From Flavobacteriales bacterium (GTDB lineage Bacteria > Bacteroidota > Bacteroidia > Flavobacteriales_E > Vicingaceae): a DNA stretch of 61,280 nt. The notes under the pieces were generated by a model. It was not told the origin of the DNA. It saw nothing but the letters and a program-made list of their open reading frames with translations, and ran no database searches. Where the stretch lies: NCBI GenBank assembly GCA_905339165.1, contig CAJPFH010000030.1, positions 1 through 61,280 of the forward strand. Direction: 5' to 3'. A program made the position numbers and the translations under genes. Positions 5,692 to 27,962 of the stretch are shown piece by piece. The first letter of the stretch is position 1; the number at the start of each line of letters is the position of its first letter.

Positions 5692-7710
5692 ATGAGCACA
5701 TTAAAAACGAATAACTTTACCAAATTAAGCGTAATAGGAGCAGGCCAAATAGGCCCCGATATTTTACTTCACTTTTCGAAAGTATTTGCTGGAAAACATG
5801 TACAACTTGTACTGGTAGATATTGCAGAAACCGCTTTGCAGAATGCACAAAAACGCATTGAAAAAAAGATTGCAAAAGGAATGGAAACCGGGGCATTTAA
5901 ACCAGAACAAGCCAAAGCAATGCAGGGAAGCATTATGTACACTACCCATTACAACGAAATTTCCGGTTCGCAGTTAGTGCTAGAAGCAGCCACCGAAAGT
6001 GAACCCATTAAAGACAAAATCTTTAAACAAGCCGAAGCACTTTGCGGAGATGAAACCATCTTTCTGTCGAACTCATCTCACATGCAGCCTGAGGTAATTT
6101 TTAAAAACATTAAAAATCAATCTCGTTGTTTAGTTTCTCATTACTTTTTTCCTGCCGACAGAAATCCAATCGTTGAACTTATTCCCTCCGATAAAACTGA
6201 TAAAAATCTAATAAATGAATTAATGACCTTTTACGAAGAAATAGGAAAAGTGCCTATTGTAGTTAAAAGTTCTTACGGATACGCCATAGATCCCATTTTT
6301 GAAGGCCTCTGCCAAACCGCTCTCATGTGCTTAGAAAAAGGATGGGGCAATGAAAAACAAATTGATAAAATAGCACAAGAAACACTCGGCCTGGGAGTAG
6401 GCCCATTTACCGCATTAAATCTTACCGGAGGAAATCCTATTACCGCACACGGCTTAGATGAAATGGGTAAACTCGTAATGCCTTGGTTTAAAACCCCTAG
6501 CATATTACACCAAGCCGTAGAAAATAAAACTGCATGGAATATTGCCATTAAAGATGAAGTAGTAGAAGTTTCCAATGAACTGCACACCAAACTACGCGAT
6601 GAATTTTTAGGAGCCTACTTTTCGCTCTCCTCGTTTATTATAGATTTGGGAATAAGTTCTGTAAACGACTTAGATATGGCCTGCGAACTCTCTCTGGTAA
6701 TAAAAGCTCCTTTTACATTTATGAATAAATTCGGAACACAAAATGCATTAGAAGTGGTTAAAAAATTTAATGCAAATCATCCCGAATTTAAAGTCCCCAT
6801 TTCACTCGAAAATGCTGCTAAAAATGGCCAATGGCAAATAGAACAGATTACAAAAACAATAAAAAATAATGTAGCCATCCTTACCATACGCAGACCTAAA
6901 GTACTAAACGCTCTCAACAGCGATGTAATGGGGCAAATTCTTAAACACTGTAAAGAAATTGAACAAGATAATACCATTAAAGGAGTAGTTATTACAGGAC
7001 ACGGAACAAAAGCATTCGTTTCCGGTGCTGATATACGAGAACTCGCTGCCTGCAAAACACCGGCCGAAGGCGTTGCCAATTCAAGATATTTCCACTCCGT
7101 ATTATCTTTTATAGAAAATATGAAAAAACCGGTAATCTGTGCTTACAACGGTTTTGCTTTTGGAGGCGGCAACGAATTGGGAATGGCGTGCACCCTTCGT
7201 ATTGCTAAAAAAGGATTACCCATTGCATTTTGCCAGCCCGAAGTAAATTTAGGCTTTATACCCGGAGCAGGTGGAACCCAACGTTTGCCTCGACTAATTT
7301 CCGTAGAAAAAGCCTCAGAAATTTTACGAACCGGCCGGCCCGTTTCCGGGAAAGAAGCCCTAAGCCTCGGATTTATTTACAAAGAATTTGACGGAGATTT
7401 AGTTAACGAAGCCATAACCATCATAGAACAAATAAATTCCGGAAAAATAACTCCCAAACGACTCTCTAAAGACCCGGCCATTTCAGACATTGAATGCCCA
7501 CCCGAAATAACCTTAAACCACCTAAGCAAACGCATCGATCAAATTCTTTGCAGAGCCATTTACGATGGATTAAGAATGAGATTGGAAGACGGACTCGAGC
7601 TTGAATCTACTCTTTTTGGTGAATGCATCCTAACCAAAGACATGAAAATTGGCCTCGAAACTTTTATGAAACAAGGAGCCAAAGCAAAAGCAGAATTTAT
7701 TCATGCATAA
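5692..7710 (+). CDS. Fused 3-hydroxyacyl-CoA dehydrogenase / enoyl-CoA hydratase
   Basis: This 672-residue bifunctional beta-oxidation enzyme has the dehydrogenase domain first, the reverse of FadB. NAD binding: GAGQIG at 16-21. Catalytic pair: His150 in SHYFFPADRNPIVELIP with Glu162. The helical dehydrogenase C-domain extends to about 375. The crotonase domain (about 388-600) has the oxyanion-hole motifs FVSGADIRE and FAFGGGNELGMA. Both hydratase glutamates are present: Glu495, and Glu517 in CQPEVNLGFIPGAGGTQRL. It heads a 17-gene operon. A hydratase/dehydrogenase fusion is also part of the described indoleacetate (iaa) cluster. The inferred role is 2-aminocinnamoyl-CoA -> 3-hydroxy -> 2-aminobenzoylacetyl-CoA. 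Family is certain, substrate is inferred. Confidence 0.88.
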   Translation: MSTLKTNNFTKLSVIGAGQIGPDILLHFSKVFAGKHVQLVLVDIAETALQNAQKRIEKKIAKGMETGAFKPEQAKAMQGSIMYTTHYNEISGSQLVLEAATESEPIKDKIFKQAEALCGDETIFLSNSSHMQPEVIFKNIKNQSRCLVSHYFFPADRNPIVELIPSDKTDKNLINELMTFYEEIGKVPIVVKSSYGYAIDPIFEGLCQTALMCLEKGWGNEKQIDKIAQETLGLGVGPFTALNLTGGNPITAHGLDEMGKLVMPWFKTPSILHQAVENKTAWNIAIKDEVVEVSNELHTKLRDEFLGAYFSLSSFIIDLGISSVNDLDMACELSLVIKAPFTFMNKFGTQNALEVVKKFNANHPEFKVPISLENAAKNGQWQIEQITKTIKNNVAILTIRRPKVLNALNSDVMGQILKHCKEIEQDNTIKGVVITGHGTKAFVSGADIRELAACKTPAEGVANSRYFHSVLSFIENMKKPVICAYNGFAFGGGNELGMACTLRIAKKGLPIAFCQPEVNLGFIPGAGGTQRLPRLISVEKASEILRTGRPVSGKEALSLGFIYKEFDGDLVNEAITIIEQINSGKITPKRLSKDPAISDIECPPEITLNHLSKRIDQILCRAIYDGLRMRLEDGLELESTLFGECILTKDMKIGLETFMKQGAKAKAEFIHA

Positions 7711-9841
7711 TAAAACCGATATGAGATATAAACTCGGTATAGATATTGGCGGCACATTTACAGATCTGATACTTATTTCAGATACCGGACAAACAACCGT
7801 TCATAAAACATTATCTACTCCAAACGACCCTTCCGTTGGTTTTATTAATGGCATCAAGGAATTGGCCGAAATGAACTGTATTCCCTTTGATTCTTTCATA
7901 AAATTAATTGATACCATTGTACATGGCACCACCGTTGCCACCAACGCCCTCTTAACCCTTAAAGGTGCAAAAACCGCTTTAATAACCACAAAAGGATTTA
8001 GAGATGCTCTAGAAATGCGCAGAGGAATTAGAGAAGAACAATTCAACAACCGGTACCAAAATGTTACTCCGCTTGCACCACGCTACCTCCGATTTACAAT
8101 AGATGAACGCATAGATGCCGAAGGCAAAGTGTATAAAAAACTAAACGAAAAAGAACTGCTGCCTATTGTAAAAAAAATAAAACAAGAAAAGGTTGAAGCT
8201 GTGGCCATTTGTTTTATGAATTCGTTTAAAAACAATATACACGAAAAAAAAACACTTTCCTTTCTTAAAAGAAATCTTCCCGGAGTTTTTATTACCGCCT
8301 CGTACGAAGTACTGCCTTCCATACGCTTCTACGAAAGAGTAAGCACTACTACTGTTAGTGCATTTGTAGGCCCTATCGTTGCAAACTATTTTAACAACTT
8401 GCAAAAAAAACTAAAAGAAATAAAATACTCAGGCTCTCTTTTAATCATGCAATCAAACGGAGGAGTAGTGTCGCCCGAAACAGTACAAAAAAACCCTGCC
8501 GTTACCGTTCTCTCAGGCCCTGCTGCGGCCCCCACTGCCGGAGCTTTTTATTCTAAAATGTTGAATTACAAAAACTGCATTACTGTTGATATGGGAGGAA
8601 CCAGTTTCGATGCAGCATTAGTAATAGACAACCAATGCGTAACCGGTACAGAAGGAAACATCAATCGCTATCGCATTGCTCTTCCCTCGCTCGATATTAT
8701 TACCATCGGAGCAGGTGGCGGAAGCATTGGATGGATAAACGAAGGTGGATTGTTACAGATGGGGCCACAAAGTGCGGGAGCACTACCAGGCCCGGTATGT
8801 TACAACAGAGGAGGAGAGCTACCCACTTGCACCGATGCCGATTTAATACTAGGTTACTTAAACCCAAACTTCTTTGCAGGCGGAAAACTGAAACTAGATA
8901 AAACAAAAGCAGAAAAAGCTATCTCCGAAAAACTGGCAAAAAAATTAGGCCTTAACGTACTGGAAACAGCAGCCGGAATGTACCGAATTATAAACAGCAA
9001 CATGGCTCAAGGCGTTAGGCAAATATCTATTGAACGCGGATACGACCCTCGCGAATTTTTATTCATCGTGGCAGGTGGAGCCGGATCTATTCACTCATCG
9101 GAAATATGCAAAGAACTAGAAATCCCCATGTTTTTAGTGCCGAATGTTTCCTCTATTTTTTGTGCAGCCGGTATGCTCTTGGGCGACCTAAAACACGATT
9201 ACATCCGCTCGTTTTATACCACTTTTTCAGCTATGGATAAAAAGAAATTTCTTTCACTTTTTAACGAAATGAAAGAAGAGGGACTGAAAACATTAGCGAA
9301 TGAAGGAGTGCAAAAAAACAAAATCGAATTTTACCCCGTACTCGATATGCGGTACAGTGGGCAATATCACGAAGTGCAACTTCCCTGCCGTTGGAACGAT
9401 ATTCAAAAACTAAAATTCGAAACTATTTTTGAAGCTTTTCACAACGAACACAACCGCCAATTTGGGTATGCCTTAAAAGAAGAAAAAACCGAAATGGAAA
9501 TAATAAATCTACGTTTAAGAGTAGTTGGAGAAAACGAAAAACCAACCTTTTTATCGAATACACAAAACACCATTGAGGCCCAACAAGCCATTAAAGAATA
9601 CAGAGATGTTTTTATTCCGGAAACCAACCAAATGGAAAAAGTTCCCATTTACGATGGCGACAAACCCATTTTCGGAGCCGAAATAAAAGGACCCTGCGTA
9701 ATTGAAAAGGTTACTACCTGCATTTTCGTAAGTAAAAACTATGATTGTAAAGTAGATTATTGGGGTTCTTTTTTGGTGTACGAAAAAAATTCAAAAACAA
9801 CAAACCAGATGTTAAGTAAAAAACTGCTCCATGCCAATTGA
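7703..9841 (+). CDS. Hydantoinase/5-oxoprolinase family, ATP-binding A subunit
   Basis: HyuA-type subunit (712 residues) of an ATP-dependent cyclic-amide hydrolase. Actin-like ATPase motifs are GIDIGGTFTDL at the N-terminus, the HGTTVATNALL loop, VDMGGTSFDAALV and GAGGGSIGWI. Family members open hydantoins or oxoproline, or carboxylate ketones, by phosphorylating a carbonyl. The start overlaps the previous gene by 8 bases; ATG at 7721 (MRYKLGIDIGG) is an equally good start. The B subunit follows with an 11-base overlap. Inferred role: ATP-driven opening of the lactam ring of 2-oxindole-3-acetate to 2-aminophenylsuccinate, as proposed for the iaa cluster. Other lactams are possible. Confidence 0.86.
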   Translation: MHNKTDMRYKLGIDIGGTFTDLILISDTGQTTVHKTLSTPNDPSVGFINGIKELAEMNCIPFDSFIKLIDTIVHGTTVATNALLTLKGAKTALITTKGFRDALEMRRGIREEQFNNRYQNVTPLAPRYLRFTIDERIDAEGKVYKKLNEKELLPIVKKIKQEKVEAVAICFMNSFKNNIHEKKTLSFLKRNLPGVFITASYEVLPSIRFYERVSTTTVSAFVGPIVANYFNNLQKKLKEIKYSGSLLIMQSNGGVVSPETVQKNPAVTVLSGPAAAPTAGAFYSKMLNYKNCITVDMGGTSFDAALVIDNQCVTGTEGNINRYRIALPSLDIITIGAGGGSIGWINEGGLLQMGPQSAGALPGPVCYNRGGELPTCTDADLILGYLNPNFFAGGKLKLDKTKAEKAISEKLAKKLGLNVLETAAGMYRIINSNMAQGVRQISIERGYDPREFLFIVAGGAGSIHSSEICKELEIPMFLVPNVSSIFCAAGMLLGDLKHDYIRSFYTTFSAMDKKKFLSLFNEMKEEGLKTLANEGVQKNKIEFYPVLDMRYSGQYHEVQLPCRWNDIQKLKFETIFEAFHNEHNRQFGYALKEEKTEMEIINLRLRVVGENEKPTFLSNTQNTIEAQQAIKEYRDVFIPETNQMEKVPIYDGDKPIFGAEIKGPCVIEKVTTCIFVSKNYDCKVDYWGSFLVYEKNSKTTNQMLSKKLLHAN

Positions 9842-11507
9842 TAAAATATTAGTAAGCATCTTCCAACGTGCTTTCAAATCAATAACCGATGAGATGAGTA
9901 TCTCGTTAACCAAAACGACTCGTTCTCCTATATTATGCGAGGCAAAAGATTTTGTTACCGGATTGTATGATGCCAATGGACAAATGCTGGAACAAACCGA
10001 AAACCTGCCCATTCTTTCTTTTTCATTAGGGCCCGTATGCAGAGTTATTTTAGAGCAATACAAAAAAGACATTCACGAAGGCGATGTAATTATTCACAAC
10101 GATGTTTTTTCTATGGGAAATCAAAATAACGATGTAGCTATTTTTAAACCCATTTTCTTCGAAAATACATTGATTGGCTGGGCTGCAGCCAAAGGTCATC
10201 AGGCCGATATTGGCGGAGCCGTACAGGGCGGATACAACCCGAATGCTACCGAAGTTTGGCAGGAAGCCATTCGCATTCCGGCCGTAAAACTTTATGAAAA
10301 AGGCCAACTGCGTAAAGATGTGTGGAACCTGATTTTTGCAAACATCCGTCTTCAAATGGTTCAAGAAGATATTAAAGCACAAATGGGAGCCTGCACACTA
10401 GGTGAAAGAAGATTACAAAACTTTGTTTCAAAATATGGTCTAACTATTTTTGAAACACATAAGCAAGCCTTATTTGATAGCACCGAAAAAATGATGCGAG
10501 CCGAAATTAAATCCATTCCAAACGGCACGTACAAAGGAAGCAGTATGGTCTATTACGATGGCAAACATAAAGGAAGTAAATTCCCTATACGTGCAGAAAT
10601 TACTGTAAAAAACGAAGACATTATTTTCGATTTTTCCAAATCATCACCCCAAACCAAAGGTTTTGTAAACGGTACTTACACTTCTACTTGTTCGGCTATT
10701 ACTCTTACCTTTCTGCAAATGGTTAATCCCAATATTCCACACAACGAAGGAATGATTAAACCTTTAAAATATATTGTTCCGGAAGGCACCATACTCAATG
10801 CTTCTTATCCTGCCGCCACTACTTTTGGAAACCATCTTTGCCCACAAGTTGCCGATGCCATTTTTAAAGCACTTGGCCCTGCCGTTCCCAATCGTATTAC
10901 AGCCGGCTGGAATCACTTACTTTGCTCTTTGTTTACAGGCATACACCCGCGTACCGGAAAAAAATACGTTGACATTTGTTTTCTGGGAATGAAAGGCGGA
11001 AGTGGTGCCATGAATGGAAACGATGGATACGACCATATTGGCATGATTGACGCATCGGGCGGAGTTCTCGACCAAGATTATGAAATGTACGAACAACAAA
11101 CTCCACACATGATATTGCAACACGAATACCTTTGCGACTCGGGCGGTGCAGGACAATGGCGAGGAGGGTTAGGAACCATCACAAAAATTAATCTGAGAGG
11201 AGGCAACACCACGATGGTAGTATTTGGCGATGGCGATGTGGAAACCAATTACGGGCTCTTTGGCGGAAAAGGAAGTGTATTAAATACAATCGAATTAACC
11301 TATCCCAATAAGAAAAAAATTACACCTATGAGCAAAGACCTTCTTGAAGGCATCCCCGATAACACTCTTTATTACCAAATAGCCGGAGGAGGAGGAGGGT
11401 ATGGCAATCCTAAAAAAAGAAAAAAAGAAAACGTGCTACAAGATGTAAAAAATGAAGTGGTTTCTAAAAAAGCGGCCGAAAAAATGTATGGTATTAAAAT
11501 TAAATAA
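9831..11507 (+). CDS. Hydantoinase B/oxoprolinase family subunit
   Basis: HyuB-type subunit (558 residues), partner of the upstream HyuA-like protein. Signatures are SISLTKTTRSPILCEAKDF near the N-terminus, GDVIIHNDVFSMGNQNNDV, AAAKGHQADIGGAVQGG (a conserved metal/substrate-site region) and the glycine-rich C-terminal AGGGGGYGNP. Length is normal for the family. Translation is coupled to hyuA by an 11-base overlap, which fits a tight complex. It should supply the amide-hydrolysing site for the ring opening described for HyuA. Confidence 0.86.
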   Translation: MPIDKILVSIFQRAFKSITDEMSISLTKTTRSPILCEAKDFVTGLYDANGQMLEQTENLPILSFSLGPVCRVILEQYKKDIHEGDVIIHNDVFSMGNQNNDVAIFKPIFFENTLIGWAAAKGHQADIGGAVQGGYNPNATEVWQEAIRIPAVKLYEKGQLRKDVWNLIFANIRLQMVQEDIKAQMGACTLGERRLQNFVSKYGLTIFETHKQALFDSTEKMMRAEIKSIPNGTYKGSSMVYYDGKHKGSKFPIRAEITVKNEDIIFDFSKSSPQTKGFVNGTYTSTCSAITLTFLQMVNPNIPHNEGMIKPLKYIVPEGTILNASYPAATTFGNHLCPQVADAIFKALGPAVPNRITAGWNHLLCSLFTGIHPRTGKKYVDICFLGMKGGSGAMNGNDGYDHIGMIDASGGVLDQDYEMYEQQTPHMILQHEYLCDSGGAGQWRGGLGTITKINLRGGNTTMVVFGDGDVETNYGLFGGKGSVLNTIELTYPNKKKITPMSKDLLEGIPDNTLYYQIAGGGGGYGNPKKRKKENVLQDVKNEVVSKKAAEKMYGIKIK

Positions 11508-11516
11508 CATATACTC

Positions 11517-11990
11517 ATGAACAACATTGAAACCGATTGCTGCCCAAAGTTTGACAAAACACCTTGGGACGAAAAAGAAATTCAATGGGAAAATAAATTG
11601 TTTATTAAAGACCGTGTAAAAAGTTTTATGCACATGCCGCTAAATTTTGGTTCGGTAATTAAGAGCTGCATGAAAAAAATAGAAAAATCGTCTGCCAATA
11701 ACCCAGATTACTTAATGCTCTCCGATGAAAATTCTTTGTGGGGTTCTGATTTGTTTATTGCTGTAAATAAAAAAATTGACAGCGCCAATAATGTTACTAT
11801 TTCCGGAAACTTTATTTCAAAAGTTTTTGAAGGACCCTTTCAAAATGCAGGTAAGTGGGCTAAAGAAATGGAATTCTATGTAAATACAAAAGAGGGAAAA
11901 ACTAAAAAAATTTATTTCTGGTACACCACCTGCCCGAAATGTGCTAAAGTATACGGAAAAAATTATGTGGTTCTTTTTGCTCAGGTATAA
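11517..11990 (+). CDS. Conserved small protein with CPKC motif (function unknown)
   Basis: 157 residues with an N-terminal DCCPKFDKTPWDEKEI signature and, near the C-terminus, YTTCPKCAKVYGKNYVVLF with a CxxC that could bind a metal. I recognise it as a conserved bacterial family sometimes labelled hydrolase without biochemical proof. It lies 9 bases after hyuB and 18 before the Rid-family gene. A small metal-binding accessory subunit, as in some carboxylases of the HyuAB group, is one possibility, but nothing in the sequence proves it. No signal peptide or membrane segment is seen. Confidence 0.7.
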   Translation: MNNIETDCCPKFDKTPWDEKEIQWENKLFIKDRVKSFMHMPLNFGSVIKSCMKKIEKSSANNPDYLMLSDENSLWGSDLFIAVNKKIDSANNVTISGNFISKVFEGPFQNAGKWAKEMEFYVNTKEGKTKKIYFWYTTCPKCAKVYGKNYVVLFAQV

Positions 11991-12008
11991 ATAAAATAAT
12001 AATAACGA

Positions 12009-12410
12009 ATGAAACACCAAACAATACTTCCCGATGGTTGGCCAATGCCAAAAGGATACTCAAATGGAATATTGGCAGCAAAAGGCAGAACACTTTTTTT
12101 AGCCGGACAAGTAGGATGGACACCTGAGGAAAAATTTGCCAGCGATAAATTAGTTCCCCAATTCGAACAAGCCCTAAAAAACATTAAATCCATTGTAGAA
12201 AAAGCCGGAGGAAGCGTAACCGATATCTGCAAAATGACCTGCTTCTGCAAAGACAGAAATCAATATTTAGAATCGAGAAAAGAATTGGGAACAATTTGGA
12301 AACAAATAATGGGAAACCACTACCCCTGTATGAGCATGATTTTCGTAGTAGATTTATTAGACCATCCGGCACTCATAGAAATTGAAGCAATGGCCGTAAT
12401 TCCTGATTAG
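12009..12410 (+). CDS. Rid-family (YjgF/YER057c/UK114) protein lacking the RidA arginine
   Basis: 133 residues with the Rid fold: ILAAKGRTLFLAGQVGW, the helix QFEQALKNIKSIVEKAGG and C-terminal IEIEAMAVIPD. RidA deaminases use an Arg (Arg105 in E. coli) in a PxRSxV context. Here that position is Met108 (PCMSM), while the C-terminal Glu124/126 are present. So it is not expected to be a standard 2-iminoacid deaminase. It abuts the acyl-CoA dehydrogenase start with no gap. It may tautomerise or hydrolyse an enol, imine or aminated intermediate of the pathway, for example the enol of 2-oxindoleacetate, but that is speculation. Confidence 0.82.
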   Translation: MKHQTILPDGWPMPKGYSNGILAAKGRTLFLAGQVGWTPEEKFASDKLVPQFEQALKNIKSIVEKAGGSVTDICKMTCFCKDRNQYLESRKELGTIWKQIMGNHYPCMSMIFVVDLLDHPALIEIEAMAVIPD

Positions 12411-16068: not shown

Positions 16069-16074
16069 AAATAT

Positions 16075-16458
16075 ATGAAAGTACTGTTAAGTAAACCAGG
16101 CTTAGACGGACACGATGTGGGTGTAAAAGTATTAGCCCATGGCCTCATTGATGCCGGATTTGAGGTAGTATATACCGGACTAAGAAAAACCATTGAAGAA
16201 ATTGTAGATGCCGCCATTAAAAACAAAGTCGATATCATTGGTATGTCTATATTATCAGGCACACACCTTGTGCTGGCTAAAAAAATGAACGAAGTAATGC
16301 AGCAAAAAAAATTAAATATTCCATGGTTTGTGGGCGGAAATATTCCGGCCAAAGACATTGAAAAATTAAAACAACTGGGAGCCCACAACGCCTTTCCCAC
16401 AGGAAGCAAAATTGCCGATGTGGTAAATTATTTCAACACCATAAAAGTAAACGTATGA
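16075..16458 (+). CDS. B12-dependent acyl-CoA mutase, small (cobalamin-binding) subunit
   Basis: 127-residue B12-binding subunit. It carries the base-off/His-on motif DGHDVG (DxHxxG) in KPGLDGHDVGVKVLAHGL, the SILSG stretch and the VGGNIP loop that hold the nucleotide tail. This is the split arrangement of isobutyryl-CoA and 2-hydroxyisobutyryl-CoA mutases rather than the fused methylmalonyl-CoA mutase. It ends with a 4-base overlap (ATGA) into the large subunit gene, so the two should form one enzyme. Confidence 0.9.
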   Translation: MKVLLSKPGLDGHDVGVKVLAHGLIDAGFEVVYTGLRKTIEEIVDAAIKNKVDIIGMSILSGTHLVLAKKMNEVMQQKKLNIPWFVGGNIPAKDIEKLKQLGAHNAFPTGSKIADVVNYFNTIKVNV

Positions 16459-18077: not shown

Positions 18078-18108
18078 AAAATTAATCGCAATTAGAAAAT
18101 AAAAAAAT

Positions 18109-19302: not shown

Positions 19303-22300
19303 TGATAAAAAAAACCATTGACATATTAACTTCTTATTCAACACCACGTAAAGTTTGCGAAATGGGCAATGTGGCTGTTGCCAGAGGAGCTATAGAAGCA
19401 AATGTTGATGGCGTTTTTTCTTATCCGGGTACTCCTTCTACCGAAATTTCGGAAGTTTTTTCTCACATCAATTCTTTTCAAAGCCGAAAAGAAAATACTG
19501 AAAAATACCCCGAGCAAACAGCCAATAAAATATATTTTGAATACAGCATCAACGAAAAAATTGCCTTAGAAAAAGCCATTGCTTATTCCATAGCAAACAA
19601 AAGTGCTTTATGTGTAATGAAAAACGTAGGCATGAATGTAGCTTGCGATGCACTTATGAGCATTACTTATCAAACTATTCTGGCTCCTTTGGTAATTGTT
19701 GTTTGCGATGACCCGGGTTGCCACTCCAGCTCTAATGAACAAGATTCCCGTTATTGGGGAAAAATGGCAAACGTGCCAGTATTTAATCCTTCTACACCGG
19801 CAGAAAGTTTAGCACAAACCAAATCGGCTTTTTTACTATCGGCACAATTAAAACTTCCGGTTATGGTACGGCTTACCACCCGCGTTTCGCACACAAGAGG
19901 TGTTTTTAACTACGGGAAATTATCAAATAAAAACCATGCAGCCACTTTCGAAAGAATTCCGGAACATATTAACATTCCTGCAAAAACAGCCGCAGCACAT
20001 GCCAAACTTTTAAATAAACTTCATTCGGATTACATTAACGAACATGCTGTAAAATACAACCAAATTATACATCGTCAAAACGCCAATATCGGAATTATTA
20101 CCAGTGGAGTTACAACCGTTTATGTAAAAGAAATATTGGAGCGTTCGGCTATAAAAAATAACTATTCTATACTAAACCTTGGTTTAATATATCCATTTCC
20201 AACCGCTATTGTTTTAGAATTTCTACAACTTTCTTTAAAGAAAATTATCGTAATTGAAGAGTTAGACCCCATCATCGAAAATGAAGTTCGAGTTATTGCT
20301 CAACAAAATAAAATAAAGACCCCCATTTACGGAAAAGGCTTTTCTACCTTGTTACCAACAGGCGAATTTTCGTTAGACAGCATTGAAAAAACGCTTTTTG
20401 ATTTTACAAAAGACAAATCCTTAAAAAATAAAAATACCCCAATAAAAAATACGGAAAATATTGTAAAAAAATTGCCCGTTCGCCCGCCCACCTTATGTGC
20501 CGGGTGCCCACACAGAGCAACCTTTTACGCCTTAAAATTGGCCGTTCCCAGAAATATTTCAGATGTAATACTTTGTGGTGATATTGGATGTAACGGTTTG
20601 GGAGCATTGCCTCCTCTTAAAATGATAGACACCATTAACCACATGGGCATGAGTGTTTCTATGGCACAAGGGCTTTCCGAGGCATTTCATACTTCCAACC
20701 AAAAGAATAAAACGGTTGCCATGCTGGGTGATGGCACTTTTTTTCATTCGGGTGTTACTTCTTTATTAAATGCCATTTATACCAAAGCCAATATATTGGT
20801 TATTATTTTCGATAACAGAACCATTGGCATGACAGGACATCAGGACCACCCGGGAGCAACACATCTAAACAAATATCATCAAATTGATTTATTGCCTTTT
20901 ATACGAGGTATGGGAGCTCAATATGTAGAATCTATTTTTCCGTTTAATTTAAAAGAAAGTTTCAGTAAAATAAACGAGGCGTTGGCAACACAAGGCGTTT
21001 CGGTTATTGTAGCCAAATCGCCTTGTATATTTTTACCCGAATTTAAAGAGGGTAGTATTTACAGAAAAAAAATTGTGGTAGACCATTCTCGCTGCAACAC
21101 CTGCGACAATCACGAGGATATGCAAATTGCTTGTGCAAGATGCTATTCGCCATTAAATAATTTATCGAGAGCCAAATTAAAAATAACCGCCACCCATCAT
21201 GTTGCGGCACAAGAACAGTTGTGCCCCGCCAATATCTGTAATCATGGATTTTTTAATTCCATTATTGAAGAACACTATCCAGAAGCAGTTAAAATGGTTC
21301 GGGATAAGATGTTGTTTTCTCGCACCTGCGGAGATATTTGCCACCGACCCTGCGAATTGTTGTCGAAAAATAAAACCATTGTTCCTATTAAAAACCTTAA
21401 GCGTTTTGTTTCTTCTTTCGATGAAAGTTTTTTCGATTTTTCAACAGCTATCGAGCGAACAAAAACTGCCCAAAAGAAAAATAAAAAAGTAGCCATTGTA
21501 GGTGCCGGTCCGGCAGGATTAAGTTCTGCATACGATTTAATTCGTGAAGGATATACCGTTGATATTTTCGATAAAGAAGAAAAACCGGGAGGAATGTTAA
21601 AATACATCATTCCTTTTTTTAGAATGGACAAAACCGGTTTGGATTACGAAACAAGCATTTTAGAAGAATTAGGAGTAACCTTTTTTGGCAACAAACTCTT
21701 AGGAAAAGATTTTACGATAAACGACCTCAGTCAAAAATATGATGCCGTTGTTTTAGCCATTGGTTTATGGAAATCGAAAAAATTAGAAGTAGTAGAAAAC
21801 CATGTTCCCGATGCAAAAAAACACACCGCCCTTTCTTTTTTAAAGGCCATAAATACACATTCCATTCAAGCCACTCAGCCCTCAAATTATTTAATTATTG
21901 GAGGCGGAAACAGTGCCATCGACTCCGCACGTGCAGCAAAAAAAATAAATCCTAACAACACCGTTACCTTAGTTTGTATTGAAAGCAGAGAAAATATGCC
22001 CGCCTTTGAAGAAGAAATTGTTCATGCCATAGAAGAAGGTGTTAAAATAATTCCGGAATCTTCCGTTGAAAAAGTGATAGATTGTAACGAGGTTGTTCAA
22101 TGCACCATAAAATCACTCCTTACCGATAACACACAAATCATTTCTTGCGATACCATCATCACAGCCATTGGGCAAAGCCCAAACACTGAATTGTTTTCCG
22201 AGTTATCAGAACAAACCGACAAAAACTCCTCACTCATTCACATCAATAACAAAAACGGATTTACCCATTTCAAAAATGTTTTTGCTGCCGGAGATATTTG

Positions 22301-22685
22301 CCAAGGCAACCACCAAAGCGTAATTGGAGCCATTGCCAGCGGAAAAAGAGCCGCAACAGGAATAAGGCAGTTACTCGAAAATTACAAGTACGGTTATGAA
22401 GGAATTAACGCACTAGATAAGTTAAATCAATCGAGTGGTAAGTATAGTATTCCAAAAAATAATTTTACCAACGAAGTGGATTTGTTAGAAGGAATAAAAG
22501 GAATGGATTTCTATCAGGCTTGTGCAAAATGCAATCATTGCATCGATAATTTCGGTTGCCCTGCCATGATAAAAGTAAACGGAAAAATAGAAATCGATTA
22601 TCAAAAATGTACCAACTGCGGTTTGTGTATTGATGTTTGCCCGAATAATGCCATCACATTTATTGAAGAAGTAATACCTGCATAA
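19299..22685 (+). CDS. iorA: Indolepyruvate:acceptor oxidoreductase alpha subunit fused to a GltD-like NAD(P)H:FAD module
   Basis: 1128 residues. Residues ~1-590 are IorA-like: pyrimidine domain with YPGTPSTEISEVF, CAGCPHRATFYALK (~400) and the TPP-binding GDIGCNGLG (~427). Near 593-610 is VDHSRCNTCDN. From ~640 a second, GltD-like half begins with an Fe-S segment (TCGDICHRPCEL), an FAD site VAIVGAGPAGLSSAYDL (~729) and an NAD(P) site LIIGGGNSAIDSA (~865). A ferredoxin-like cluster domain, CAKCNHC...CTNCGLCIDVC, ends the protein (~1073-1115). The fusion should let electrons from arylpyruvate oxidation reach NAD(P)+ directly. Reaction: indolepyruvate + CoA -> indoleacetyl-CoA + CO2. Phenylpyruvates are alternative substrates. 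Confidence 0.87.
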   Translation: MMIKKTIDILTSYSTPRKVCEMGNVAVARGAIEANVDGVFSYPGTPSTEISEVFSHINSFQSRKENTEKYPEQTANKIYFEYSINEKIALEKAIAYSIANKSALCVMKNVGMNVACDALMSITYQTILAPLVIVVCDDPGCHSSSNEQDSRYWGKMANVPVFNPSTPAESLAQTKSAFLLSAQLKLPVMVRLTTRVSHTRGVFNYGKLSNKNHAATFERIPEHINIPAKTAAAHAKLLNKLHSDYINEHAVKYNQIIHRQNANIGIITSGVTTVYVKEILERSAIKNNYSILNLGLIYPFPTAIVLEFLQLSLKKIIVIEELDPIIENEVRVIAQQNKIKTPIYGKGFSTLLPTGEFSLDSIEKTLFDFTKDKSLKNKNTPIKNTENIVKKLPVRPPTLCAGCPHRATFYALKLAVPRNISDVILCGDIGCNGLGALPPLKMIDTINHMGMSVSMAQGLSEAFHTSNQKNKTVAMLGDGTFFHSGVTSLLNAIYTKANILVIIFDNRTIGMTGHQDHPGATHLNKYHQIDLLPFIRGMGAQYVESIFPFNLKESFSKINEALATQGVSVIVAKSPCIFLPEFKEGSIYRKKIVVDHSRCNTCDNHEDMQIACARCYSPLNNLSRAKLKITATHHVAAQEQLCPANICNHGFFNSIIEEHYPEAVKMVRDKMLFSRTCGDICHRPCELLSKNKTIVPIKNLKRFVSSFDESFFDFSTAIERTKTAQKKNKKVAIVGAGPAGLSSAYDLIREGYTVDIFDKEEKPGGMLKYIIPFFRMDKTGLDYETSILEELGVTFFGNKLLGKDFTINDLSQKYDAVVLAIGLWKSKKLEVVENHVPDAKKHTALSFLKAINTHSIQATQPSNYLIIGGGNSAIDSARAAKKINPNNTVTLVCIESRENMPAFEEEIVHAIEEGVKIIPESSVEKVIDCNEVVQCTIKSLLTDNTQIISCDTIITAIGQSPNTELFSELSEQTDKNSSLIHINNKNGFTHFKNVFAAGDICQGNHQSVIGAIASGKRAATGIRQLLENYKYGYEGINALDKLNQSSGKYSIPKNNFTNEVDLLEGIKGMDFYQACAKCNHCIDNFGCPAMIKVNGKIEIDYQKCTNCGLCIDVCPNNAITFIEEVIPA

Positions 22686-23269
22686 TGAATAATAAAACCA
22701 AAATACAAGTAGCCGGAGTAGGTGGACAAGGAGTGGTATTTTTGACCAACTTAATGGTTGAAGCAGCTCTGATTTCCGATATTCCTGTAGCTACCAGTGA
22801 AATTCATGGCTTATCGCAACGAGGTGGCTCAGTTACAGCAAGCATTACCATGGGAGAAAACACTTATGGTTTTATAGAAAAAGGAGGAGCCGATTTTTTA
22901 TTAGGACTGGAATTGCTGGAAACGCAACGTTGCTTAAGTTATCTTCATAAAAGTTCTGTTGTGGTGGCTGATGATTTTAAGATTACTCCTTATTCCGTTA
23001 ATGCAGGAACGGCTCCATATCCCGACACAAAAAAATTTGTAAAAAATCTTGAAAAACAAATACAAAAAATTATTCTGATAGAACATGTTTCCGGCATCAA
23101 AGATATTTTAAGAAATATGTTCGTGTTGGGAGTAGCCTCTACGGTTAATAATTTTCCACTAACAAACGAAAATATTCTAAAAGCAGTTCACCAAAATGTA
23201 GCCGATTATAATATAGAATCTACTATCGAAGCATTTGCATTGGGAAGAAAATATAAATATGAAAAATAA
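22685..23269 (+). CDS. iorB: Indolepyruvate:acceptor oxidoreductase beta (gamma-domain) subunit
   Basis: 194 residues with the 2-oxoacid oxidoreductase gamma-domain signatures VAGVGGQGVVFLTNLMVEAA and SEIHGLSQRGGSVTASI. It shares one base with the upstream stop codon, so subunits are made together. This domain binds CoA and completes the oxidoreductase. Length fits IorB. Confidence 0.9.
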   Translation: MNNKTKIQVAGVGGQGVVFLTNLMVEAALISDIPVATSEIHGLSQRGGSVTASITMGENTYGFIEKGGADFLLGLELLETQRCLSYLHKSSVVVADDFKITPYSVNAGTAPYPDTKKFVKNLEKQIQKIILIEHVSGIKDILRNMFVLGVASTVNNFPLTNENILKAVHQNVADYNIESTIEAFALGRKYKYEK

Positions 23270-23277
23270 AATAAACA

Positions 23278-23778
23278 ATGGAAATAACTTTTACGCTAAA
23301 CGGTAAAAAAACAACATGCCAGATTAAAGCGAGTGCCACCTTGTTGGAATTGTTGAGAGAAGCACTGAATTTAACCGGAACCAAACCGGGTTGCCATGAA
23401 GGCGAATGCGGTGCCTGCACTGTTTTAATAAATGGAAAATCGGTAAACTCCTGCCTGTATCTGGCACTAAACGCAAACGGAAAAGAAATTACAACCATAG
23501 AAGGGCTTACCAAACCAAACGGAGGTTTAGACGAAGTGCAGGAAAGCATGATTAAAAATGGAGCCGTACAATGCGGTTTTTGCACATCCGGAATGGTTTT
23601 AAACATAAAAGCCCTGCAGTTGGAAACCATGCAAAATAAAAAAGTGCCCGGAAGCGGAATAAAAAATTCACCCAACCGAAACGAAATAAAAAAGTGGCTG
23701 GAAGGAAACCTTTGCCGATGCACAGGATACGTAAAAATTATTGATGCTGCCGAAGAAGTTTTTAATAAAGGAAAATAA
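23278..23778 (+). CDS. Molybdenum hydroxylase (xanthine dehydrogenase family), 2Fe-2S subunit
   Basis: 166 residues. The plant-type [2Fe-2S] cluster ligands are Cys39, Cys44, Cys47 and Cys59 (GCHEGECGACTVLINGKSV), and the second cluster uses Cys99, Cys102, Cys146 and Cys148 (QCGFC and LCRCTGY). It forms an electron relay between the Mo site and FAD in a three-subunit enzyme with the next two genes. A 21-residue insert (about 118-138) precedes the second CxC. Confidence 0.92.
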   Translation: MEITFTLNGKKTTCQIKASATLLELLREALNLTGTKPGCHEGECGACTVLINGKSVNSCLYLALNANGKEITTIEGLTKPNGGLDEVQESMIKNGAVQCGFCTSGMVLNIKALQLETMQNKKVPGSGIKNSPNRNEIKKWLEGNLCRCTGYVKIIDAAEEVFNKGK

Positions 23779-23789
23779 CACTTGCTACT

Positions 23790-26087
23790 ATGAGTAAAAA
23801 ATTGAAAATTATAGGAACACCTGTTCCAAAACACGATGCAAAAATACGTACCACGGGCGAAGCCATTTACGGGCACGATATTAAATTGCCCAATATGCTG
23901 TATGGTGCTATTTTAAGGACTCAGCACCCCCATGCCGAATTTACTATTGATGTTTCCGAAGCCAAAAAAATACCCGGAGTAGCCTGTATCATTACAGCCG
24001 ATGATGTAGATACAAACCATATAGGCTACAAACGCGATCATCCAATTTTAAAGAAAAACGAAGCCAATTGCTGCCGCGATGAAATAGCGGCTGTTGCTGC
24101 CGAAACCAAGGAAATAGCACAAGAAGCACTGAAACGGATAAAGGTAAAATACAAAGTAAAAAAAGGCATTTACAACCCACATGAAGCATTAAAGAAAAAT
24201 GCTCCTCAAATAAATAAATTCAGTAGTGGAAAATTTGAAAACAAAAACATAGCCGAAAAATTTTTCTACGAACACGGAAATTTAGAACAAGAAAAAAAGA
24301 ACAGCGTAGCCATTGTAAAAAGAAAATTTACACTGCCACGAATGACACATGCTTGCATGGCCACAAGCAACATAACCGCACACTACACTAAAACCAACGG
24401 AAAATTGTTGCTGTACAGTTCCACACAAGTACCCTTTCTCTACCAACGAGATATGGCTCATGCCCTAAAAATGAATCCCTCCGATATTCGCATCATTCAA
24501 CCCATTATTGGAGGAGGATTTGGAAGTAAATTAGACATGCACCCCTTTGAACCCATTTGTGCACTACTTTCTATTAAAACCGGCAAACCGGTACAAATTC
24601 TTTATTCAAGAGAAGAAGAATTTATTGCCTCTCCTACTCGCCAACCCATGGAAATAGAACTTACAGCAGGAGTAGATAAAAACGGGAATTTTACGTTTCG
24701 CGAAATAGAAATTATAAAAGATAATGGAGCGTACACCTCTTGGGGAGCGACCACCCCATTTGTGATTATGCAGGCATTCTCTTCATTGTATAAAATTAAA
24801 GCTTGCCGTTTTAATGCACTTGCCGTTTATACCAATAATGTATTTGCCGGCTCTTTTAGGGGATATGGCAACCCTCAGGCTACTTTTGCTCTTGAAAGAG
24901 TGATTGATTTATTAGCCGATGAAATTGGAATAGACAAAGCCGAAATTCGTTTACGCAATGCCAATACAAAAGGCGAAATTACCGGACAAGGTTTACATTA
25001 CGATACCTGCGGACATAAAGAATGTTTACAAACCGTTATTAAAAAGTTGAAAGTTGAAAAGAAAAAAGTTGAAAAGAAAAATCGATTTAAAAGAGGAATT
25101 GGTTACGCTTCAATGCTTCACGTGGGCGGGGGAGCAAAAATTTATCGTTCCGATGGATGTGGCACTACTCTGAAAATAGACCCCTACGGATTTTGCACCA
25201 TTATTACAGGTTCTAACGAGATAGGACAAGGTTCTGAAACCGTACTGGCCATGATTGCAGCCGAAGAACTAGGCATTGAATTAAGTAAAATAAAAGTAAT
25301 TAATACCGATACCGATGTAAAACCATGGGACGTAGGTGTACACGCCTCTCGCACCAGTTTTGTAGCAGGAAACTCTCTGCTCGGAGCCATTCACATTTTA
25401 AAAGAAAAATTAAATAATAAAGCCGCTCAACTTTTAAATGAAAAGAATAAAAACTTCACTTACGAAAACGGAAATATTATTTCTCCCTCCCATCAACAAA
25501 TTGCCTTAGATAAAGTGGTAAGAGAAATGCACTTTACAGAACCCAATGAATTAGCTATTGCTTCTTATTTTTATGAACCTTCCAGTAAATTTCAAGATAA
25601 AGATTTTAAAGGAAATGTTTCCGGAACTTATGCCTTTGCATCGCAAAGCATTAGTGTAGAAGTAGACACCTATACAGGAAATGTACAAGTATTAGATATT
25701 CATGTGGCACAAGATGTAGGAAAAGTATTGAACCCACTACTACTCGATGGACAAATACATGGGGGAATTTTACAAGGGGTAGGTTATGCCTTAACAGAAG
25801 AGTTGATTTTTAAAGAAGGAGAACTTCTCAATCCGAATTTTCATAATTACAAAATGCTTACGGCAGCCGATGTGCCCAATATTCACTTTTACCCCGTAGA
25901 AACCAATGACAAACAAGGCCCTTACGGAGCCAAGGGCGTAGGCGAAGCTCCACTTATTCCTACGGCTGCAGCTATTGCCAATGCAGTATGCGATGCATTA
26001 GATGTAGAAATAGTAGAACTACCTATAACACCCGAAAGAGTATTAAAAGCCATTGCAGAAAAGAAGAATAACAAAAAAAATAAGTAA
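23790..26087 (+). CDS. Molybdenum hydroxylase, large Mo-pterin subunit (candidate indoleacetate 2-hydroxylase)
   Basis: 765-residue xanthine dehydrogenase-type catalytic subunit. Visible signatures are IIGGGFGSKLDMHPFEP, AGSFRGYGNPQATFALE, GSNEIGQGSETVLAMIAAEE and the active-site GAKGVGEAPLIP with catalytic Glu719. It hydroxylates a heteroaromatic or aldehyde carbon with water and passes electrons to the Fe-S and FAD subunits, so no oxygen is needed. In the operon context the likely reaction is indoleacetate -> 2-oxindole-3-acetate. An odd lysine-rich tandem repeat (KVEKKKVEKKN, about 422-432) sits between domains. The substrate is inferred. Mo-cofactor sulfuration genes (XdhC) are not in the window. 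Confidence 0.88.
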   Translation: MSKKLKIIGTPVPKHDAKIRTTGEAIYGHDIKLPNMLYGAILRTQHPHAEFTIDVSEAKKIPGVACIITADDVDTNHIGYKRDHPILKKNEANCCRDEIAAVAAETKEIAQEALKRIKVKYKVKKGIYNPHEALKKNAPQINKFSSGKFENKNIAEKFFYEHGNLEQEKKNSVAIVKRKFTLPRMTHACMATSNITAHYTKTNGKLLLYSSTQVPFLYQRDMAHALKMNPSDIRIIQPIIGGGFGSKLDMHPFEPICALLSIKTGKPVQILYSREEEFIASPTRQPMEIELTAGVDKNGNFTFREIEIIKDNGAYTSWGATTPFVIMQAFSSLYKIKACRFNALAVYTNNVFAGSFRGYGNPQATFALERVIDLLADEIGIDKAEIRLRNANTKGEITGQGLHYDTCGHKECLQTVIKKLKVEKKKVEKKNRFKRGIGYASMLHVGGGAKIYRSDGCGTTLKIDPYGFCTIITGSNEIGQGSETVLAMIAAEELGIELSKIKVINTDTDVKPWDVGVHASRTSFVAGNSLLGAIHILKEKLNNKAAQLLNEKNKNFTYENGNIISPSHQQIALDKVVREMHFTEPNELAIASYFYEPSSKFQDKDFKGNVSGTYAFASQSISVEVDTYTGNVQVLDIHVAQDVGKVLNPLLLDGQIHGGILQGVGYALTEELIFKEGELLNPNFHNYKMLTAADVPNIHFYPVETNDKQGPYGAKGVGEAPLIPTAAAIANAVCDALDVEIVELPITPERVLKAIAEKKNNKKNK

Positions 26088-26090
26088 GTC

Positions 26091-26960
26091 ATGGAATTTG
26101 AAATTGAATCTCCGAAAAATATTACCGAATTGTGCAAAACGATAAAATCCTATCGTTCAAAATCTTTCCGATTGGGAGCAGGGTATACCGATTTGCTGAT
26201 GGAATTAAAAAAACATACGCCCCGGAATTTAACGGTTATCAATCTTGCACAATTAAAAGATATTTCATTTTCTTCCATTCGTTCTACTACAAAAAATATT
26301 CAAATTGGAGCAATGGTTACTGCTTCGAAACTAGTAACTGATACAAGTGTAGAACAACCCTTTCCGGTTTTACAGCAAGCCGCACATAACCTCGCTTCTA
26401 CACAAATACGGCAGGTTGCCACCCTGGGAGGAAACTTGTGTACCGCTTCGCCCTCCGGTGATTTAATTTGTGCTGCAATGGCACTTCAGGCTTCTTGCGA
26501 AATAATGAATGATGACAAAAAAATACGTACTCTTTCTATTCAAGATTTTTTTATCGGTGTACGTAAAACGGCTCTTAAGAAAAATGAATTTTTATTTGCC
26601 ATAAATATTCCAAAAAATAAAAAGGAAACGGCCACACTTCATTCTGGATTCATTAAAATTGGCACACGTAAATCTATGGAATGTTCGGTGGTTTCGCTGG
26701 CCTTTCATTTACAAATAGATAAAACCGGAAAAATAATTGATGCCGGAATAGCTATTGGAGCTTCTGCTCCTACTGTGAAGTTTGCCCAATCGGCTTGCCA
26801 ATTTTTAATCGGAAAAAAAATAAATTCTTTTTCCGAAAAAGAAAAAGAAGAATTTGCCAACAAAGTGCTTTCGTATGCATCGCCCATTAGCGATATACGT
26901 GCTACTGCGTGGTATAGAAAAGAGGTATTGTTTAATATAAGTAAAGGCGTATTGGAATAA
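26091..26960 (+). CDS. Molybdenum hydroxylase, FAD-binding subunit
   Basis: 289 residues of the CO dehydrogenase/xanthine dehydrogenase FAD subunit type. FAD-binding motifs are RLGAGYTDLLMELK near the N-terminus and RQVATLGGNLCTASPSGDL in the middle; the C-terminal domain (GIAIGASAPTVKFAQSA) is also present. It completes the small-large-medium gene trio in the order S, L, M. It probably delivers electrons to NAD+, though the FAD-proximal NAD site cannot be verified here. Confidence 0.9.
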   Translation: MEFEIESPKNITELCKTIKSYRSKSFRLGAGYTDLLMELKKHTPRNLTVINLAQLKDISFSSIRSTTKNIQIGAMVTASKLVTDTSVEQPFPVLQQAAHNLASTQIRQVATLGGNLCTASPSGDLICAAMALQASCEIMNDDKKIRTLSIQDFFIGVRKTALKKNEFLFAINIPKNKKETATLHSGFIKIGTRKSMECSVVSLAFHLQIDKTGKIIDAGIAIGASAPTVKFAQSACQFLIGKKINSFSEKEKEEFANKVLSYASPISDIRATAWYRKEVLFNISKGVLE

Positions 26961-27962
26961 ATGGCAGACAAAAAACTAATCAAACTAAATGCCAATGAAA
27001 ACTTTTATGGCTGTTCGCCTAAGGTGGTTTCTTTTATTAAGAAAAACGCCCACATCGTTTCTTCGTATCCAAACTACACCCCCGAAAAATTAGAGCAGGC
27101 TATTGCACAAAAACTAAATGTTTCTACCAACTGTGTAGCGGTTGGAGCAGGATCGGTAAGAATTATTGATGGCATACTCCAATCGTTAGTTAAACCTGAA
27201 AACGAAATTTTAATTTTTGAAAACTCTTTTGTAGCCTACTATCAGTTAGCAGATATACATCAGATAAAATACAAACTTATTCCCCAACACCAATTTGTAT
27301 GTAAATTAGAAAATGTAATTCCTTACGTTACAAAAAAAACGAAACTTGTTTTTATTGCCAACCCAAACAACCCCACCGGTACAGCAATTACGCACAATGA
27401 ACTTGTGCAATTTATAAATAAAATTCCTTCTTCGGTTTTGGTAGTGGTAGACGAAGCTTACATTGAATACGCCACACAGAAAAATATTGCAAAGCCCTTA
27501 AGTTTAATTTCTAAACATAAAAATATTGTAGTGGTACGCACCTTTTCTAAAGCATATGGTTTGGCCGGATTGAGAATTGGCTACGTTATTGCCGATGAAA
27601 AAATAATTGCTCAACTTAAAAATAATCGCATACCCTTTACCATTAACTGCTTTGCAGAAAAGGCAGCACTTACAGCACTTTCGGACGAAACCTTTCTCTA
27701 TTCCTGTGTACAAAAAAATAAAACAGAAAAAGAGTTTCTTTTTTCCGCTTTGAAAAGAAAGGGATATCAGGTGGTTCCTTCAGAAGCCAATTTTCTTTTT
27801 GTGTATTTTAAAAAAGAAGAGGAAAAAGAAAAAGTCTACCACGCCCTTCTCGATAAAAATCTGGTAGTGTGTAATTTAAAAATTTTCGGACAAGAGAAAT
27901 GCTTACGAATTGGCATTGGAGATAGAAAAATAAATAAACAGATAATTGCTTCAATGGTGTAA
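26961..27962 (+). CDS. HisC-like class I/II PLP aminotransferase (candidate aromatic/tryptophan aminotransferase)
   Basis: 333 residues, fold type I. The start NANENFYGCSP matches the LNANENP-type substrate loop of HisC/aromatic aminotransferases. NPNNPTGT, VVDEAYIEY (Asp164 binds the pyridine N) and TFSKAYGLAGLRIGY (PLP Lys197, Arg205) are intact. The ATG follows the preceding stop with no spacer, so it is the last gene of the operon. No other histidine-biosynthesis gene is nearby. Next to an arylpyruvate oxidoreductase it most likely makes indolepyruvate from tryptophan. Histidinol-phosphate aminotransferase remains the formal alternative. It is shorter than typical HisC (about 350). Confidence 0.82.
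   Translation: MADKKLIKLNANENFYGCSPKVVSFIKKNAHIVSSYPNYTPEKLEQAIAQKLNVSTNCVAVGAGSVRIIDGILQSLVKPENEILIFENSFVAYYQLADIHQIKYKLIPQHQFVCKLENVIPYVTKKTKLVFIANPNNPTGTAITHNELVQFINKIPSSVLVVVDEAYIEYATQKNIAKPLSLISKHKNIVVVRTFSKAYGLAGLRIGYVIADEKIIAQLKNNRIPFTINCFAEKAALTALSDETFLYSCVQKNKTEKEFLFSALKRKGYQVVPSEANFLFVYFKKEEEKEKVYHALLDKNLVVCNLKIFGQEKCLRIGIGDRKINKQIIASMV

Follow-up and report, generated by a model that had tools for sequence, protein, structure and literature searches.

The 61,280-nucleotide stretch of DNA analysed here, hereafter the window, is contig CAJPFH010000030.1 (G+C content 36.8%) of an uncultured Flavobacteriales bacterium of the family Vicingaceae, and it carries on its plus strand an operon of 17 co-directional open reading frames (positions 5692–27962) that very probably serves the oxygenase-free catabolism of tryptophan via anthraniloyl-CoA, followed by ring reduction and opening through a class I benzoyl-CoA pathway encoded on another contig of the same genome. 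In anoxic systems, the usual view has tryptophan either being lost as indole or indole acids or having its ring opened by oxygenases, and the chemistry concerned is so far known from studies of denitrifying Proteobacteria, with the plant hormone indoleacetate as the starting compound; the operon predicts a full oxygenase-free tryptophan route in a Bacteroidota family. It encodes together the core of the indoleacetate (iaa) pathway, namely an IaaF-type acyl-CoA dehydrogenase with HydAB, a split B12 mutase, a CoA transferase and a molybdenum (Mo) hydroxylase, at 32–64% identity to the iaa cluster of Aromatoleum evansii KB740. All activities, the substrate, the electron carriers and the deamination step discussed below are what we infer from sequence.

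The iaa core and its conservation

For comparison, 80 loci (L numbers) were fetched from public genomes as the best 80 of 200 confirmed places by means of two peptide patterns drawn from an alignment of Bacteroidota sequences, and the sampling leans towards the Bacteroidota side; the Aromatoleum references are A. evansii KB740 (L129) and A. toluvorans, with A. aromaticum EbN1 absent from the loci. In the available text of PMC8360864, the replacement of YEG by GGG is given as the diagnostic motif of IaaF. The IaaF-type protein of the window (12411–13538; 57% identity to A. evansii) carries GGG, as do 79 of 79 readable homologues (74 by regular expression and five by eye; L118 has no readable motif region), and two acyl-CoA dehydrogenase paralogues of the window's own genome carry GEG and YEG. 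In an IaaF tree of 78 of the 80 loci, from which L113 and L118 were left out, 15 Pseudomonadota loci including Aromatoleum form one clade (100/97; the Aromatoleum clade below), and 61 rows of Bacteroidota and related phyla, the window included, form a second (100/99) with one Competibacteraceae row inside; three rows (Planctomycetota, Acidobacteriota and an unnamed bacterium) stand beside the second clade with weaker support. The best 40 of 419 records of IaaF relatives on plasmids are ordinary-looking acyl-CoA dehydrogenases (36–40%).

The remaining core enzymes point the same way. The mutase consists of a B12-binding subunit (16075–16458; PF02310, TIGR00640), whose motif reads DGHDVG where the small subunit of A. 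evansii has DGHDQG, and a catalytic subunit (16455–18077) with 64% identity to its A. evansii counterpart. An earlier note on this DNA had named a grouping of the mutase with enzymes of a different known substrate as a refutation, and in a quick tree of the window and 58 of the 80 loci (those with a mutase of at least 90% length and no stops; long-branch warnings for L119, L122 and L128) the window falls among the iaa mutases, and the nine canonical methylmalonyl-CoA mutases lie well apart. The Mo hydroxylase comprises a [2Fe-2S] subunit (23278–23778; PF01799, PF00111; 46% identity to A. evansii), a molybdopterin subunit (23790–26087; PF02738/PF20256; 48%, with GAKGVGE in both) and a flavin adenine dinucleotide (FAD) subunit (26091–26960; PF00941; 32%); against the iaa enzyme of A. 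evansii it reaches 699 bits, and against 4-hydroxybenzoyl-CoA reductase, its nearest solved relative, whose substrate is a CoA ester, as proposed here, it reaches 356 bits in a different program. The ATP-dependent lactamase is made up of a HydA-type subunit (7703–9841; PF01968/PF05378; 50% identity and 682 bits to A. evansii HydA) and a HydB-type subunit (9831–11507; PF02538; 64% identity to its A. evansii counterpart); in the available part of PMC5214803, lactamases of the HydAB type have been predicted for the metabolism of indoleacetate and named as a cluster. An IaaL-type family III CoA transferase (18109–19302; PF02515) shows 46% identity and 380 bits to the A. evansii enzyme, with IDLKAGDE common to both.

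The earlier note's equation of the enzyme list with the iaa cluster thus stands for the core but not for two enzymes that are no orthologues of the Aromatoleum cluster. One is the operon's first gene, in relatives too, a 3-hydroxyacyl-CoA dehydrogenase fused at its C-terminal side to an enoyl-CoA hydratase (5692–7710; PF02737 and PF00378). The other is a thiolase of the SCP2/BbsB type (14875–16068; PRK06157, 410.7 bits against a cut-off of 403), which matches BbsB and an archaeal thiolase, and whose putative partner is an HMGS-like domain fused to a DUF35/OB zinc domain with a BbsA-like C terminus (13535–14893). The HMGS-like domain has no cysteine among residues 50–194, so that the synthase cysteine appears to be lost, and the protein looks like a thiolase scaffold rather than an active synthase. 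Operon proteins also contain motifs that we take to mark B12 binding, thiamine pyrophosphate (TPP) binding, the pyridoxal phosphate (PLP) lysine, the Mo-site glutamate and the aspartate region of the CoA transferase.

Two side observations concern the core in other loci. The Competibacteraceae row, L102 (Candidatus Competibacteraceae, Pseudomonadota), whose IaaF lies within the Bacteroidota clade and which has PF20603 in common with the window, represents either gene transfer or a misbinned contig. In L074, L081, L102, L110, L115 and L116, a different crotonase-type protein of ~693 aa (PF00378 in L081) adjoins the core; these loci contain no closer counterpart of the window's dehydrogenase/hydratase, and their thiolase is 35–38% identical to that of Aromatoleum.

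The spacings between the 17 genes, read 5' to 3', are -8, -11, 9, 18, 0, -4, -19, 6, -4, 31, -4, -1, 8, 11, 3 and 0; the largest gap of 31 given in the earlier note holds, whereas overlaps reach 19 bases instead of 11. Each gene could be assigned to a family by Pfam and NCBIfam searches, which bore out the enzyme families named before, although that gene list had left out three members: the HMGS-like/OB-fold protein, a PF20603 'bacterial hydrolase' protein (11517–11990; 219 bits) and a RidA-family enamine/imine deaminase-like protein (12009–12410; PF01042), whose role is putative. The PF20603 protein has no solved relative at E ≤ 1 and, among the compared loci, is restricted to the window's genus and L102; the RidA gene is found in 42 of the 65 loci that do not belong to the Aromatoleum clade and in none of the 15 that do.

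The gene order recurs in other genera of the family at 34–92% protein identity, which excludes a chance arrangement, and the synteny that the earlier note had suggested looking for is kept in several related genera. Among the related genomes (G numbers; nearest relatives of the window include Flavobacteriales bacterium MAG_49 and Vicingaceae bacterium KA17), G005 of the same genus has 17 of 17 genes in order, and G016, G024 and G044 have 16 of 17, PF20603 being the one absent and the IorA-GltD protein of G044 being split over two frames; G011, G017 and G037 have a portion of the operon as far as their contigs extend. The aminotransferase drops to 34–43% identity in other genera while the gene order holds. 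Within the order, a mutase match occurs in 39 of 46 genomes, of which eight (own included) have the operon-type catalytic mutase at 84–100% identity and the others only an ordinary mutase at ~37–41%.

Linkage to the benzoyl-CoA pathway

The window is contig C30 of its own genome, G000 (3.16 Mb in 136 contigs), and contig C6 of this genome carries a cluster with BcrC, BcrB, BcrA, BcrD, Had, Oah and Dch, that is, a class I benzoyl-CoA pathway, of which BcrB, BcrC, BcrD, Had and Oah score above curated cut-offs (5/7). In G024, G016 and G044, the bcr genes, the operon and thl-had-oah-dch form one block of ~37–42 kb on one contig and one strand, in the order bcrC-B-A-D, AMP ligase, HGD-D, PanE-activase, the 16 conserved operon genes, thiolase, had, oah and dch (the AMP ligase was not found whole in G044, and bcrD is in two pieces in G016); the same block order in G011 fits over two contigs. 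Anthraniloyl-CoA, the endpoint named in the earlier note, need thus not be the final product, given a class I benzoyl-CoA pathway in the genome that is contiguous with the operon in relatives; operon and bcr genes thus describe an oxygenase-free degradation of tryptophan through ring opening.

BcrB was searched for in the genomes of 50 of the 80 loci, the 30 left out including L057, L058, L060 and L061 (that is, G005, G044, G016 and G024) as well as L059, which is probably G011. It scores above the cut-off in 32 of these 50 iaa-bearing genomes, in 3 of 395 Bacteroidota genomes (an even sample, own included) and in none of 14 control genomes; Fisher's test for 32/50 against 2/394 gives p ~1e-33, a value that is overstated since the genomes are related. 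BcrB is present in 30 of 36 genomes with a RidA gene at the iaa locus against 2 of 14 without (kinship uncorrected). No bcr-type BcrB match occurs in A. evansii, whose benzoyl-CoA reductase is presumably of the bzd type.

It is improbable, by contrast, that the same chemistry ends at anthraniloyl-CoA, to be hydrolysed, exported or used in biosynthesis, while the bcr cluster serves benzoate or other aromatics. Such an end product would suit the window's genus, in which operon and bcr cluster lie on different contigs (G000 and G005; C6 in the former) and the cluster has its own ligase, and it would suit the 18 of 50 iaa genomes that lack BcrB; however, it leaves unexplained the contiguous block of three relatives, in which the operon has bcr on one side and thl-had-oah-dch on the other. 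An aerobic route through 2-aminobenzoyl-CoA monooxygenase/reductase was also considered and rejected: PF00724, the flavoenzyme family that we take as its marker, is found in 0 of 6 genomes, whereas 13 of 14 controls matched, which likewise argues against that end product.

Several genes at or near the bcr cluster deserve mention. A 616-aa fusion of a ketopantoate-reductase-like part (PF02558/PF08546) with a BadF-BcrA-type activase (PF01869), here PanE-activase, is encoded beside a lone HGD-D (HadB-like; PF06050) gene at L174:377-2224 (own C6 ~173877-175724) and L161:728-1942; the pair is kept between bcr and the operon in G011, G016, G024 and G044, and a PF06050 search returns three genes in each of the six operon-bearing genomes, those on the own C6 being part of the bcr cluster. 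In the own genome and G005, a saccharopine-dehydrogenase-like gene (L161:5670-6812) separates bcrA from bcrD; it was not found at this place in G011, G016, G024 or G044. Between had and the thiolase, a 605-aa protein (L160:15792-17606) has no match in Pfam (E ≤ 0.001) or NCBIfam (E ≤ 1e-30), and L160:6815-8586 near the cluster encodes a c-type cytochrome and a divergent COX1-family protein, read as NorB-like, with no NCBIfam match at E ≤ 1e-30.

Entry of the substrate

Within the Aromatoleum clade, 13 of the 15 loci encode an IaaB-type ligase (≥50% identity to the one of A. evansii), and in the remaining two, L128 and L135, a contig end cuts the locus on the relevant side; the 65 loci outside the clade have no such ligase, nor any match at E ≤ 1e-12. 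Family searches find neither an IaaB ligase nor an IaaM binding protein among the operon genes. Conversely, an indolepyruvate-type oxidoreductase, recognised by similarity, is present in 34 of the 65 outside loci and in none of the 15 inside, a further five outside loci having only a Kor/Vor-like 2-oxoacid oxidoreductase. In L119, L122 and L131, IorAB is located immediately upstream of HydA, the position of the IaaB ligase in A. evansii.

In the operon, an alpha subunit that resembles that of indolepyruvate:acceptor oxidoreductases forms one fused protein with a GltD-like FAD/NAD(P) module carrying Fe-S motifs (19299–22685; 1128 aa; TIGR03336, PRK12771), and a beta subunit of similar kind is encoded at 22685–23269. 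No family fits the alpha part better than TIGR03336, which gives 584.6 bits against a cut-off of 650.9, and the beta subunit scores 132.5 bits against TIGR03334 (cut-off 205.8); a TPP-binding domain (PF02775) with a GDG...N motif and a POR-type beta domain (PF01558) are present. The enzyme is proposed to work like IorAB and is not assigned to the curated families, whose cut-offs lie above its scores. A strong alpha-subunit match is present in 26 loci: the GltD fusion lies in one frame in 18 of them and is spread over two frames in one, the locus ends within the gene in five, and the remaining two have a different type of 841 aa; in 395 genomes, with two candidates per genome scored among the matches listed, the own protein alone matches IorA-GltD at E ≤ 1e-100. 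Where the earlier note had left the substrate as tryptophan or indoleacetate, tryptophan entering as indoleacetyl-CoA by oxidative decarboxylation is the likelier of the two, because the operon is without the IaaB ligase and the IaaM binding protein; with no IaaB found, it is therefore filed as a tryptophan-entered variant that would work like the iaa pathway and not as an indoleacetate cluster.

Sister clusters differ at this step. KorAB- or VorAB-like oxidoreductases replace the indolepyruvate type, or are added to it, in L065, L066, L068, L072, L075, L092 and L096, suggesting an exchange of the entry enzyme, and a single-chain 2-oxoacid oxidoreductase of 841–843 aa occurs in L063, L067 and L070, with matches of ≥60% in L071, L095, L098, L101 and L114.

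Exogenous indoleacetate as the substrate, as in Aromatoleum, with the oxidoreductase and aminotransferase as accessories and a ligase elsewhere in the genome, is decidedly unlikely. The core enzymes are indeed iaa enzymes, and an AMP-forming ligase with no assigned substrate is available in the own bcr cluster; however, this ligase is just 24% identical to IaaB, and both the distribution of IaaB and the oxidoreductase over the 65 outside loci and the IorAB genes standing in the place of IaaB before HydA speak for tryptophan.

The aminotransferase that would supply indolepyruvate (26961–27962; PF00155, PLP-dependent and HisC-like) passes TIGR01141 at 295.9 bits (cut-off 276.55). A HisC role in the own genome was rejected: a separate and stronger HisC of 365.9 bits is encoded at C6:118963 beside genes that by eye are hisG-, hisD- and hisB-like, and the aminotransferase of the operon clusters with its counterparts from the operons of four relatives and not with HisC. 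The closeness to HisC-type proteins would favour another lactam-forming heteroaromatic, such as imidazoleacetyl-CoA from histidine, but this is hardly credible, as the IaaF-type dehydrogenase and mutase are akin to enzymes for aryl-substituted intermediates, histidine breakdown has no place for the benzoyl-CoA reduction to which the cluster is joined in relatives, one solved relative of the aminotransferase is named a putative phenylalanine aminotransferase, and IaaF accepts malonyl-CoAs with bulky substituents according to the available text of PMC8360864.

Proposed route and comparison with known systems

In the preferred reading, the aminotransferase would convert tryptophan to indolepyruvate, and IorA-GltD/IorB would form indoleacetyl-CoA from it, so that no ATP-dependent ligase step would be needed. 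The Mo hydroxylase would then place water-derived oxygen onto indoleacetyl-CoA to give 2-oxindoleacetyl-CoA, the lactam of which HydAB, as the predicted 2-oxindoleacetyl-CoA gamma-lactamase, would open at the expense of ATP to (2-aminophenyl)succinyl-CoA. After a CoA shift by the IaaL-type transferase, the B12 mutase would yield (2-aminobenzyl)malonyl-CoA, from which the putatively decarboxylating IaaF-type enzyme would produce 2-aminocinnamoyl-CoA and CO2 by oxidation and decarboxylation; the fused hydratase/dehydrogenase would turn this into 2-aminobenzoylacetyl-CoA, which the thiolase with its HMGS-OB partner would cleave to anthraniloyl-CoA and acetyl-CoA. Bcr, Dch, Had and Oah would finally reduce and open the ring, and candidates for the removal of the ring amino group are the HGD-D/PanE-activase pair, the RidA protein or the benzoyl-CoA reductase itself.

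A more far-reaching proposal, to be regarded as tentative and rather doubtful, treats the ~37–42 kb unit (whole in three relatives, split in the window's genus) as a device for tryptophan dearomatisation with internal electron coupling, in which the HGD-D/PanE-activase pair would be an ATP-dependent anthraniloyl-CoA reductive deaminase or, alternatively, belong to a phenylalanine branch that joins via phenyllactyl-CoA at cinnamoyl-CoA. The fused GltD-like module would pass on two low-potential electrons per tryptophan, and benzoyl-CoA reductase would use two on the ring. Such coupling is in line with the distribution of BcrB, which occurs in 17 of 19 genomes with the GltD-fused oxidoreductase against 0 of 7 with the single-chain type (Kor/Vor-like only, 5/5; other or none, 10/19; kinship uncorrected).

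With respect to oxygen, genes for cytochrome c oxidase subunits I and II lie on the minus strand of the window (48104–50896; both below the NCBIfam cut-off, though best named so), and the own genome has three COX1-family genes above the cut-off and a fourth, weak match. Given these genes, the organism probably respires oxygen and is probably a facultative aerobe, so the route, while oxygenase-free, would not necessarily be strictly anaerobic. A single gene elsewhere in the window (38967–41204) fuses the alpha and beta parts of a pyruvate-dehydrogenase-type E1.

A number of observations tell against the preferred reading of tryptophan degradation through ring opening, beginning with the separate contigs of G000 and G005 and the 18 iaa genomes without BcrB. 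BcrA (421.5, below 578) and Dch (230.6, below 292.5) miss their cut-offs although they are best hits, as do IorA and IorB. G205, with IaaF, is absent from the BcrB matches, and G104 and G339, with BcrB, are absent from the IaaF matches. Among the 65 loci outside the Aromatoleum clade, 26 show neither oxidoreductase nor ligase; many of these are short contigs, but L069, L102, L104, L105 and L106, at ~21 kb each, are among them (L105 shows the IaaF gene only). In G011, G016 and G044, the operon aminotransferase is the sole match above the HisC cut-off, and the rejection of a HisC role does not extend to these genomes. Finally, no electron transfer flavoprotein (ETF) gene is present in the operon; a dedicated ETF for IaaF was sought and dismissed, with none among the operon genes and one ETF alpha in each of six genomes.

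The iaa chemistry and gene family are already known; as far as could be searched, the new features are the hosts (Bacteroidota and related phyla), the entry by an oxidoreductase, the IorA-GltD fusion and the linkage to ring reduction. Searches of the open-licence literature, judged from the listings, gave no report that places the iaa route in Bacteroidota, describes entry through an oxidoreductase or links it to a bcr cluster, in agreement with the earlier note, which knew of no such cluster in this phylum. As far as the available text of PMC8360864 goes, the named iaa holders are Pseudomonadota, sulfate reducers, Ferroglobus and Thermoplasmatales. Words starting 'bacteroid' or 'tryptophan' do not occur in the main text of that paper; the iaa core is also found in Marinimicrobia, KSB1, Calditrichota, Electryoneota and Ignavibacteriota, phyla not named in that text. 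The combination of oxidoreductase, iaa core and BcrB is shared by other Bacteroidota and by one genome of Krumholzibacteriota, a phylum for which BcrABCD is known from a source whose available text has no word starting 'indole' or 'tryptophan' (PMC10936416). The comparison offers a rule that can be tested in any genome, in which ligase and binding protein would indicate indoleacetate and the oxidoreductase tryptophan, and it makes testable the reoxidant of IaaF, the removal of the ring amino group and the feeding of benzoyl-CoA reductase by the fused oxidoreductase.

Compared with known systems, the operon stands closest to the iaa cluster of Aromatoleum, which in A. evansii KB740 runs thiolase, AMP ligase, HydA, HydB, IaaF, two mutase genes, three Mo hydroxylase genes, CoA transferase and periplasmic binding protein. 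Both have the order HydA-HydB-IaaF-mutase small-mutase large, a three-subunit Mo hydroxylase, an IaaL-type CoA transferase and the GGG motif, so that the gene order, for which the earlier note had advised a comparison, is similar but not identical. Unlike Aromatoleum, the window is without IaaB and IaaM and adds IorA-GltD/IorB, the aminotransferase, RidA and PF20603; it has an SCP2/BbsB-type thiolase with an HMGS-OB partner instead of the Aromatoleum thiolase, and its Mo hydroxylase genes follow the order FeS-Mo-FAD instead of FAD-FeS-Mo. The two-part thiolase resembles the solved archaeal thiolase/DUF35 and benzoylsuccinyl-CoA thiolase complexes. The own genome has the full class I benzoyl-CoA reductase set (bcrABCD, dch, had, oah); what sets it apart from the known pathway is the company of an HGD-D protein and a PanE-activase fusion, to which relatives add the complete tryptophan operon. 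The KorABC 2-oxoglutarate:NADP+ oxidoreductase of Azoarcus evansii is flavoprotein-coupled and can link NADPH with the ferredoxin of benzoyl-CoA reductase; the enzyme of the window differs from it in acting on another 2-oxoacid, as proposed, and in having the module fused instead of as a separate subunit. In gut acetogens, according to the available part of PMC13290082, aromatic 2-oxoacid:ferredoxin oxidoreductases make indoleacetyl-CoA, and indoleacetate is a minor excreted product; the same conversion of indolepyruvate to indoleacetyl-CoA is proposed here, but the subunit is GltD-fused and the CoA ester would enter degradation.

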